64,000 bases of DNA, from contig NZ_JAFHAP010000001.1 in the NCBI RefSeq assembly GCF_016938855.1, positions 119,501 through 183,500 on the forward strand. The letters are read 5' to 3'. The stretch is from Polycladomyces zharkentensis (GTDB lineage Bacteria > Bacillota > Bacilli > Thermoactinomycetales > JIR-001). Below are positions 4,538 to 60,560 of the stretch, one piece after another (the first letter of the stretch is position 1; each line of letters starts with the position of its first letter). The position numbers and the translations under genes are program-made. The notes below the pieces were generated by a model. The model saw only the letters and a list, made by a program, of their open reading frames with translations. It did not search any database and had not been told where the DNA came from.

Positions 4538-4690
4538 GTTGACAAAATTGAACCCATTTTCATTTCGGGTGCGCCGTTTTCCCTCTCGCTCCTGTATCGC
4601 ACAAGGTCGTCGCAGGAAAACAGATCCTCCTTCAGGGGAGCAGATTCAAATTCCCCGTCGAGAGCGGAGTCTCAGACGGAAAATCGGTTC
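4538..4690 (+). repeat. Repeat family A, copy 2
   Basis: It opens with TTGACAAAATTG and contains the family block GTTTTCCCTCTCGCTCCTG, then CAAGGTCGTCG-CAGGAAAAC. The tail has AAATTCCCCGTCGA and resembles the tails of the other copies. It lies in the 3' untranslated region of the aldehyde dehydrogenase gene. Confidence 0.65.
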
Positions 4691-6184: not shown

Positions 6185-6310
6185 CCGTTCCAAGCTCCTT
6201 TCCCATTGATGCATGAGAATTCCCGCCATATTCTTCAGCGGCCTGCAGGCAAATTCCTCCCTGCAGACCAAACCGAACAAACAGGCCCGGGAAATGTCTT
6301 ATCGTCCCAA

Positions 6311-6480
6311 CGTTTGCTCGCTCCACCTCAGCCTGCCGGGGAGCAAATCATGGTCCGAACCGGGGAACCCCCGTATGCCTCACTTAGAGAATGTGGGGTT
6401 CCTGTGACCCGGTCTCGGCTGTCGGATTCATGTTTTGTTGCCCACCTGGAAAGCAATGTCCCCCCTTACATGCGGCACGC
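6311..6480 (+). repeat. Repeat family B, copy 1
   Basis: This lies in the 571-base gap between the dehydrogenase and the LCP gene. It begins TTTGCTCGCTCCACCTC and ends in a diverged terminus. Its central stem (GGAACCCC with GGGGTTCC, flanked by CCGAACCGG with CCCGGTCTCGG) has a different sequence from the other copies but the same layout. The loop keeps CACTTAGAGAA, like the CGCTTAGAGGAA of copy 2. The rest of the gap shows no gene. Confidence 0.65.
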
Positions 6481-17727: not shown

Positions 17728-17796
17728 TAGTTGACAATTTTTTTGTATCCCTGTCAAGAAAATATCACACATTCCCTCGACTAAATGGCTACTAAA

Positions 17797-18026
17797 GCGT
17801 GTCTGATGAATGCTGTACAATTGCTTCCCCGGTTCGCTCCACCTGCGCCCTGCAAGGAAGCAGGTCATGGCCGCTTGAGACCCGAAGCGCAGGACGCGGG
17901 CAAGCTTCGCTTAGAGGAAGTTGCCCGCGATTTCATTCCTGCGCCTTTCGGGTCTTCGCTCGGCCGGGCTTGGTAAGTCGCTCACCAGGGATAGCATTTG
18001 CTCTCTTACGGATATATCAGACACGC
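17797..18026 (+). repeat. Repeat family B, copy 2 (best-preserved, 230 bp)
   Basis: It has perfect 11-bp terminal inverted repeats (GCGTGTCTGAT at 17797-17807, ATCAGACACGC at 18016-18026). A long interrupted hairpin lies inside: 17879-17886 with 17947-17954, 17887-17894 with 17937-17944, and 17895-17903 with 17921-17929. It holds no coding sequence and divides the polysaccharide operon between the third GT4 gene and the 3-dehydrogenase. No target-site duplication is obvious. Confidence 0.8.
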
Positions 18027-18062
18027 CCCAGACCCGGGAAAACCGTTCTTGGCTTCCGCTGA

Positions 18063-38082: not shown

Positions 38083-38172
38083 CCGCCTCTCCACCTCCTG
38101 GAAACGAGCCAAACTTCGTCGGAATCAGCGATCCTTCTCTCAGTTGGATGATGACCAGACACATACTTCGGG

Positions 38173-38410
38173 GGTGTCTGATCCGGATGACGTGCATCCT
38201 GTTCCCGGCTCGCATCACCTGCGTTCTCTCCGGAAGCAGAAACTTGTACGCTTGCAACCGGGGATGCAGGACGCAGGCAACGTACGCTTTGCTCAGAGAA
38301 AGTTGCCTGCCATTGTTGGATCCTCTCGTTTTTCCGGTTCTCCGCCGGGTCGGGGTGGAGCAAGTCGCTCATCCGGGTAAACCCTGCCTCTGACGGAATG
38401 GCCGGACACT
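38173..38410 (+). repeat. Repeat family B, copy 3, at the nuoD position
   Basis: Terminus GGTGTCTGAT at 38173-38182 and a diverged right end bound an element that keeps the family stem. AACCGG (38256-38261) pairs with CCGGTT (38334-38339). GCAGGCAA with a flanking C pairs with GTTGCCTGC (38302-38310). It fills most of the gap between nuoC and nuoH. No piece of nuoD is recognisable on either side. Confidence 0.7.
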
Positions 38411-38470
38411 CACTCCCGCCGCGAGCGGAATCTTCTTTTCCCAAGTATGCCGTTCCTGTCGGTTTCCCAA

Positions 38471-41944: not shown

Positions 41945-42118
41945 ACAAAGTGTTACTCCCGATTCCGGGTGCACCATTTTCCCTCTCGCTCCTGTTTCGC
42001 TAGCTCAAAGGTCGCTCGTGGGAAAACGGCCACCCTCTTTTTAGGTAACGGGATTTCTCGTCGGAGCGACTCTGGTTGCCGCTACGGAGCGGCAACCCAC
42101 GGAGTTTGTCAATACTCC
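41945..42118 (+). repeat. Repeat family A, copy 3 (best-preserved)
   Basis: Bounded by TGACAAAG on the left and GTTTGTCA on the right, which are inverted copies. It contains ATTTTCCCTCTCGCTCCTG, CAAAGGTCGCTCGTGGGAAAA and GGCCACCCTCTTTTTA, then an internal stem (GGTTGCCGCT-ACGG-AGCGGCAACC). It has no coding capacity. Confidence 0.7.
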
Positions 42119-42163: not shown

Positions 42164-42375
42164 CAAGGTGTGTCTCTGGTCATTCCTTGAAGGGGCAATG
42201 TTTTCCCAAGTGCGCGACGATCCGAGCCCGTCCAAGCAGGGGAACCGAAAGTGCAGAAACCGAATCTGCGGGCAATCTCCGTTATGCCAAGCGCAACTGG
42301 CCCGCGTCTCGGATTCCAATCGACCGCGATCCTGCTTCCCGATCGTCCCGAAAAGCGGTGCAAACATCCGACACG
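42164..42375 (-). repeat. Repeat family B, copy 8 (reverse orientation)
   Basis: From GGTGTGTCTCTGGTCATTCC to ATCCGACACG the sequence follows the reverse complement of copy 2 (TGCGGGCAATC, CTGGCCCGCGTC, GACCGCGATCCTGCTTCCC). It is diverged. It abuts the partial structured-RNA element on its right. Confidence 0.55.
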
Positions 42376-50089: not shown

Positions 50090-50286
50090 CCAATATGAGA
50101 TGTCGATAGTCGAAGCGAACCGTCGTTTTCGCACATCCATCTGCCCTGCAAGGAAGCAGATCCAGGTCGCTTTGTAACGGGGGGCGCGGGGTGCGAGCAA
50201 AGTACGCTTCATTCCCGCGCTTTTCCGGTTCTCCGCTCAATGGGCTTAAAAACCGACTTGTCAGGAAAACGGTGCGGCTTGATGAA
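50090..50286 (+). repeat. Repeat family B, copy 5 (partial)
   Basis: Contains CTGCCCTGCAAGGAAGCAG, GCAAAGTACGCTTC and CGCTTTTCCGGTTCTCCGCTC, matching parts of other B copies, but the termini are not clear. It stands directly before copy 4 in the same orientation, so the two form a tandem pair. Confidence 0.55.
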
Positions 50287-50289
50287 TGA

Positions 50290-50495
50290 CCAGACGCGCT
50301 CACTGTCCCATTGCTTTCCCGGCTCACTCCACCTGTGCCCTGCAAGGAAGCAGGCCATGACCGCTCCGACCCGGAGCGCGGGACGCGGCAAAGTACGCTT
50401 CGCTTTGAGGCGGTCCGCGATTTCCATCCTGCGCTTTCCGGGTCTTCGCTCGCCTGGGTAACCATTTGCTCCCTTACGGATTTACCAGACACGCC
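50290..50495 (+). repeat. Repeat family B, copy 4
   Basis: Shares with copy 2 the block CTGCAAGGAAGCAGG-CATG-CCGCT and the right end ACCAGACACGCC. The stem is kept: GACCCGGA (50368-50375) with TCCGGGTC (50437-50444). In copy 2 the same positions read GACCCGAA and TTCGGGTC, an A-T to G-C exchange on both arms. Confidence 0.75.
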
Positions 50496-50651
50496 CTAGC
50501 CCGCGTTTTCACTCATGGTCCGTTCCTCCGCTTTGTCGGCTCCTAAAAGCCGCTCAACCGGAAAAACATCTCCCCCTGCATAATCATCATTGCGATCAGA
50601 TTTCATTCCGGGCTTCTCCCTACCATCCGTTTGTTAACCGCATTCTTTCTT

Positions 50652-51349: not shown

Positions 51350-51545
51350 CCGATCCTGTCGCGTGCATCTTTTTCCAGAACCGCTCCCCATGCGACCTGC
51401 AAGGGAGGTTGCCAAGGCCGCCAGTAACCCGGGGTGCAGGACACGGGCGTACACTTCTTCATTTCCGCGCTTTTTTCGATTCTCCGCTCATTCGGTCTTG
51501 AGAACTCGCCTATCAGGGAATGTGTTGCCGCCTGATCGAATGAAC
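51350..51545 (+). repeat. Repeat family B, copy 6 (diverged)
   Basis: Keeps GACCTGCAAGG, GGGTGCAGGACACGGGCGTAC, TTCCGCGCTTTTTTCGATTCTCCGCTC in family order. It lies upstream of upp. Confidence 0.55.
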
Positions 51546-51605: not shown

Positions 51606-51765
51606 TGTTGACAAAAACCGATCCCCGTCTAAGCTCCACATTCAGCGGCAAAATCAGCGCTCTCTCATCCAAAAGAGAGTGGCCGTTTTCACACGAGTGT
51701 CCGTTGGGCTGTCGAAAGAGGAGCGAGAGGGAAAACATCACCCGAGAAATCAAGAGCAGTTTCAC
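51606..51765 (-). repeat. Repeat family A, copy 5
   Basis: On the minus strand it reads GTTTTCCCTCTCGCTCCT, then a family middle with GAAAACGGCCACTCTC, and ends in TTTTTGTCAACAAC. It stands back to back with B copy 6 between upp and glyA. A further TTTTGACAAAGTTCG at 51788 may be the edge of another copy; 51780-51906 holds no gene. Confidence 0.65.
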
Positions 51766-60228: not shown

Positions 60229-60368
60229 CTGAAAAAATCGGTTGTGCCGTTTTCCTCTCGCTCCTTTTTCGACAAGCACAGGTTACTCGCGGGAAAACGC
60301 CTACCCTCTGTCAGAGGAACGGACCGAATTTCCCTCGAGCAACTCCGAAGCGCATCTGGTGAATACTG
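60229..60368 (+). repeat. Repeat family A, copy 4
   Basis: GTTTTCCTCTCGCTCCTTTTTCG, then CGCGGGAAAACGCC-ACCCTCTGTCAG, then GAATTTCCCTCG and a tail GAATACTGA like the AATACT tail of copy 3. It adjoins B copy 7. Confidence 0.65.
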
Positions 60369-60560
60369 ACCTCCTTGCTTTTCCGGCTCGCTCCACCTGC
60401 TGCAAGGAAACCAATGATGACCGCTTTGACCCGGTCAGCGCAGGACGCGGGCAAAAAGCGCTTCGCTTTGGGAAAATCGCCCGCGATTTCAATCCTGCGT
60501 TTCCCGAGTCCCGCTTACCTGAATAAGCATCGCTCCCTTGCGGAACAGCCAACACGCCCC
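60369..60560 (+). repeat. Repeat family B, copy 7
   Basis: CTTTTCCGGCTCGCTCCACCTG, the stem CGCAGGACGCGGGC with GCCCGCG and TCCTGCG, and the right end CCAACACGCCCC. With the preceding A copy it fills the prmC-prfA gap; 60561-60755 holds no recognisable gene. Confidence 0.7.

Follow-up and report, generated by a model that had tools for sequence, protein, structure and literature searches.

A palindromic intergenic repeat of Polycladomyces, in all probability a MITE of the IS5/IS427 type

The window analysed here, a 64,000-nucleotide stretch of the Polycladomyces zharkentensis genome, carries a repeat, family B, that we identify with high confidence as a small gene-less mobile element, a MITE of the IS5/IS427 type with many intergenic copies within Polycladomyces. 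It has the look of an ordinary selfish element, not of a conserved RNA. The observations on which this identification is built are common ends, target context, copy number, differences in site occupancy, nesting, young and old subfamilies, and deletion derivatives that keep the ends. What is new is the family, which is specific to the genus; its kind, the MITE of IS5/IS427 type, is already known.

The eight window copies named in the original prediction do belong to one family: all eight were recovered, with E-values from 1.9e-71 to 2.8e-8, by an HMM whose training copies came from the genome and in part from the window itself. Weak HMM fragments lie at 50498-50572 and 7819-7746. The claim that the copies sit between genes holds for the window, where they occupy gaps between syntenic blocks shared with two sister species (G001 and G002; the window's own genome is G000). 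The features in window coordinates are:

17795..18028, + strand: best window copy, full unit of 234 bp (HMM 17793-18029, E 1.9e-71)
17793..17794, no strand: TA at the left border, the left half of the YTA/element/TAR target (sequence; flank statistics from 40 copies with both ends intact)
17797..17807, + strand: left terminal inverted repeat GCGTGTCTGAT (sequence)
18016..18026, - strand: right terminal inverted repeat ATCAGACACGC (sequence)
17879..17903, + strand: left arm of the inner hairpin, GACCCGAAGCGCAGG-A-CGCGGGCAA (sequence, fold)
17921..17954, + strand: right arm of the inner hairpin, TTGCCCGCG ... CCTGCGC ... TTTCGGGTC (sequence, fold)
6304..6469, + strand: strongly degenerate copy (listed as 6311) with an inner stem of different sequence (HMM E 2.8e-8, 27.9 bits)
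38170..38414, + strand: copy whose site is empty in G001 and holds an end remnant in G002 (HMM, synteny)
42168..42319, - strand: decayed copy, its G002 orthologue only 63% identical (HMM, alignment)
50136..50301, + strand: decayed copy, its G002 orthologue 73% identical (HMM, alignment)
50301..50498, + strand: copy adjoining the preceding one (listed as 50290; HMM E 1.7e-54)
51361..51545, + strand: decayed copy, absent in G001 (HMM, synteny)
60348..60559, + strand: copy absent in both sister species (HMM, synteny)

The MITE-like nature of the repeat, its terminal inverted repeats and its long hairpin are all borne out. The perfect 11-bp ends predicted for the copy at 17797-18026 can be read directly from the sequence, and by the family consensus the full unit extends to 17795-18028, adjoined by TA on the left and by CA, a mutated TA, on the right (18029-18030). 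An alignment of 30 copies gives a consensus of about 237 bp, too short for a transposase, and two main subfamilies, which differ in the presence or absence of an inserted TC next to the inner stem; copies commonly measure about 233-242 bp. Of the 89 copies extracted, 40 have both terminal repeats, GGGCGTGTCTGGT, with no more than 3 mismatches.

The family is dispersed and abundant. A search with the 17797 copy found at least 43 places in its own genome, mostly at 75-85% identity (40 of 140 candidates scored), and the end pattern CTAGGGCGTGTCTGGTNANT, with at most 3 mismatches allowed, matches 98, 87 and 131 times in G000, G001 and G002, against 0, 2 and 3 matches of the reversed control. The window is dense in copies, with 8 in 64 kb compared with about 10 in the stretch C8:1-400000 by HMM. 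No preference is evident in the gene context of the copies, judged crudely from open reading frames (40 tandem, 9 convergent, 9 divergent). Long stop-to-stop frames, in themselves no sign of genes, enclose 11 of 69 copies. Family B occurs in all three Polycladomyces genomes compared and was not found in 38 other genomes of the order, one weak 46-base match aside. The plasmid and phage collections searched hold no match, nor does the core 22-mer have an exact match in the genome contigs scanned, from which the own genus was possibly left out.

Two other non-coding features were noted in the window. A second intergenic repeat family, GTGCACCATTTTCCCTCTCGCTCCTGTTTCG...CGAGCGACC...GGGAAAACGGCCACCCTCTTT, is found at 41977-42041, 51671-51753, 4559-4599 and about 60250, and has the motif TTTCCC..CTCGCTCC in common with the subterminal part of family B. 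A SAM riboswitch (RF00162, 92.7 bits) lies at 1832-1945 on the minus strand.

What could have moved these elements? The original prediction proposed a search for a parent transposase with the same ends, and a parent-like element was indeed found in a sister species. G002 carries an IS5-family element of about 950 bp (L081:929-1882), bounded as TA|GGGCGTGTCTGGTAATTC ... GAATTATTAGACACGCCC|TA, with two overlapping or adjacent frames that match PF13340/PF01609 and the NCBIfam model NF033580 (IS5 family transposase). Its end is identical to that of the MITE at 17 of 18 bases, and no similarity was found between the two interiors. Related insertion sequences in Lentzea, Saccharothrix and Nocardia have TAGGGCGTGTC ends next to TA, which places the ends in the IS5/IS427-type transposase group. 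The assembly of the own genome contains no intact transposase with the MITE ends, only a contig-end fragment (C8:2-151, 68% identical over 50 aa), and none was found in G001; any present activity of family B is therefore hypothetical. The contig in question (G000:C8:1-850, L031) starts in this IS5-type transposase fragment and continues into an assembly gap, followed by what gives the impression, from its sequence, of a putative TnpB-type reading frame.

Among 40 copies with both ends, the flanks have the consensus YTA before and TAR after the element. This pattern is compatible with insertion at YTAR that leaves TA on either side, few copies having an exact duplication: TA is kept on both sides in only 8 of the 40, and left and right flanking dinucleotides are equal no more often than permuted ones, most flanks being mutated. 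A MITE of IS630/Tc1 type, considered because of the TA/CTAG context, was rejected, as the own genome has no match to PF13358 (DDE_3).

Comparison with the sister species records the turnover of copies at individual sites. The window is syntenic with both G001 and G002, in blocks that are 86-93% identical. At the site of the 17797 copy, G001 retains a remnant of about 65 nt in which one end is clear and the other arm survives in part, and in G002 a single end is left; the other window sites are empty or decayed. Among 20 further G000 sites located in the sister genomes, some are shared and some lack the copy in one or both species (for example L003 in G001, L006 in G002 and L012 in both), with diverged junctions; empty sites are blurred by the divergence of intergenic DNA. 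At L017 (G000:C11:79-81 kb) a young copy is nested within an older one, and this nested unit is present twice, about 1.3 kb apart. At L003 (about 1470-1500; L115), the G001 sequence is ATC-TAA, and in G000 ATC-TAG stands directly before the element. Here the element apparently hit the stop codon of the upstream gene, in a putative gene frame, and its first base would restore the stop as TAG. Upstream of a gene called coaE-like from its sequence, the element stands at the same place in all three species (L028:1497-1736, with L098 and L099); in G000 the site holds a copy of the young TC subfamily, 95% identical to its paralogues, but its identity to the copies in G001 and G002 is only 75-79%, in flanks that are mostly 84-95% identical. 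This pattern would be explained if copies convert one another or if a new insertion took the place of the old one.

The original prediction took paired changes in the hairpin as a sign that the fold matters, either as RNA or for transposition. The RNA fold of the 17797 copy is strong (-118.9 kcal/mol, z = -7.1 against shuffles). RNAalifold, applied to the copies, found almost no structure common to them, since divergent rows break pairs. Pairs were therefore counted on the fold of the consensus sequence, 84 of them in 52 aligned copies (alignment A1). Pairing was kept in 86.9% of cells, against 86.5% with partners shuffled. Cells in which both sides had changed with pairing kept numbered 42, against 26.7 expected by shuffling and 26.4 under a column-permutation null (fraction 0.002). 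Structures slid by 1-3 columns, however, gave 42-63 cells with double changes, as many as or more than the true fold, and 526 cells were broken against the 42 compensated. The stem variants quoted in the prediction are real: GACCCGAA/TTCGGGTC at 17797 and GACCCGGA/TCCGGGTC at 50290 differ by one compensated pair (A1 columns 101/177), which is G-C in 43 of the 52 copies, A-U in 1, G-U in 1 and broken in 5. So is the different inner stem of copy 6311, a strongly degenerate member of the family. Among paralogues the surplus of compensated pairs is small and cannot be told apart from the effect of subfamily relatedness, so that it lends the claim that the fold matters only weak support.

Copies at the same site give the more direct view of the fate of the hairpin after insertion. 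In 11 pairs of copies at shared sites, 79-89% identical, the inner stem diverged by 13.3%, against 11-20% for other parts. Of 727 pairs in these orthologues, 202 changed on one side and 14 on both, 4 of the latter with pairing kept, and pairing was gained or lost in 144. In the window, the identity of older orthologous copies falls to 63-77%, with numerous indels, against 86-93% in the neighbouring syntenic blocks. As orthologous stems diverge like the rest and the older copies have diverged this far, the fold is unprotected once inserted. The check for excess compensatory change thus had a divided outcome, with the small excess among the 52 paralogues and none beyond chance at orthologous sites, and the interpretation of the paired changes as a sign that the fold is maintained was not supported: the slid controls equal or exceed the true fold, and orthologous stems are neither protected nor compensated beyond chance. 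We infer that the fold was inherited from a mobile master and is not maintained in resident copies. Subfamily descent can explain the small excess of paired changes, as, rarely, can correction between arms.

One alternative to a decaying MITE is that the element acts as a structured RNA, or as a regulator at the RNA level, and that selection preserves its hairpin locus by locus. This would draw on the strong fold, on the modest excess of compensated pairs among copies and on the inner stem CGCGGGCAA/TTGCCCGCG, the least variable part among copies at about 5% against 10-16% elsewhere. At orthologous loci, though, this same stem changes at the general rate and compensation is not kept, older copies fall well below the identity of the syntenic blocks, and many sites have no copy in the sister species; family B moreover has no Rfam match and no sigma-70 or terminator pattern was found in it. 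We regard this explanation as highly improbable. Somewhat less improbable, and still unlikely, is a function for the palindrome in the mobile master itself: as a cruciform or hairpin, for instance, it might aid excision or target capture by an IS5-type transposase, with paired changes fixed in successive masters while resident copies decay and conversion between loci homogenises them.

The few compensated changes may instead reflect correction of one arm by the other, through intramolecular template switching or conversion, rather than selection. Palindromes are known substrates for template switching. This cause, raised already in the original prediction and compatible with the MITE reading, is possible, if less likely than not, for a few copies: at one orthologous site, the 14-bp stem of MITE-like copies (L092:11811-11925 and L096:12402-12516) is perfectly paired but of wholly different sequence (GAAACGGACCACGG/CCGTGGTCCGTTTC in G001). 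A local search over the extracted loci placed this alternative-stem variant at that G001/G002 site only. As a general process, arm correction must be rare given the 526 broken cells, and inherited subfamily differences explain part of what it would account for (pair 45/216 is C-G in 29 copies and U-A in 6). That the repeat consists of internal-deletion fragments of one coding transposon is suggested by the ends common to the coding IS5-type element; the MITE interior has no similarity to that of the insertion sequence, and the copies are full-length relative to each other, at about 233-242 bp, which makes such an origin improbable.

Loss of the hairpin is itself documented. Short elements of about 58-72 bp keep both ends and have no hairpin, and five of these (L188, L189, L190, L191 and L192) have the junction CCACATTGCTCCCTTACGG or a near variant in common. 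Two of the five are orthologues, so that the common junction occurs at four independent sites. In the consensus, an 8-bp direct repeat, ACATTGCT, at the base of the hairpin flanks the 183 bp that were lost, and slippage between these repeats probably removed the whole hairpin. The short derivatives would stem either from repeated deletion of the palindrome by slippage or from movement of the ~60-bp form itself; in the latter case the hairpin would be dispensable for mobility.

The MITE reading can be put as a sequence of steps. A non-autonomous MITE uses the ends GGGCGTGTCTGG...CCAGACACGCCC and the target YTAR, and an IS5-family (IS427-type) transposase, whose own insertion sequence has the same ends, may have moved it, or may still move it, in trans. 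The near-full-length palindrome would have arisen in, and be carried by, the mobile master. After insertion, copies are free of constraint: they gather substitutions and deletions and can lose the hairpin entirely.

An intergenic hairpin with apparent covariation can thus be a decaying MITE, and the comparison that tells an RNA from a MITE is that of orthologous copies at the same site, not of paralogous ones. For a thermophilic genus that has been little studied, the data document a large MITE family, a parent-like insertion sequence alongside it, and intergenic DNA that turns over rapidly.

Among known systems, one of the closest to family B is the IS427 group of the IS5 family (for example IS1248, ISPaes1 and ISPpa2), whose elements have inverted ends of 13-21 bp, mostly 2-bp target duplications, and a DDE transposase in two overlapping ORFs (PMC3281130). 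The ends GGGCGTGTC are found in the genus's own insertion sequence and in actinomycete relatives; unlike the IS427 group, the MITE has no transposase gene, measures about 237 bp and has a palindromic interior unrelated to the insertion sequence. With the Correia elements of Neisseria (204 bp; PMC10969869), to which we liken it by literature description alone and which inhabit a different host, it has in common a high copy number, a non-coding intergenic nature, terminal inverted repeats and a similar size. Compared likewise by description, the QMITEs of Coxiella, MITEAba12, ERIC and further MITEs of bacteria (PMC10969869, PMC5896051, PMC6382973) resemble family B in being non-autonomous, with a stable stem-loop, strain-variable copy number and clustered or nested copies, whereas family B was found only in Polycladomyces.
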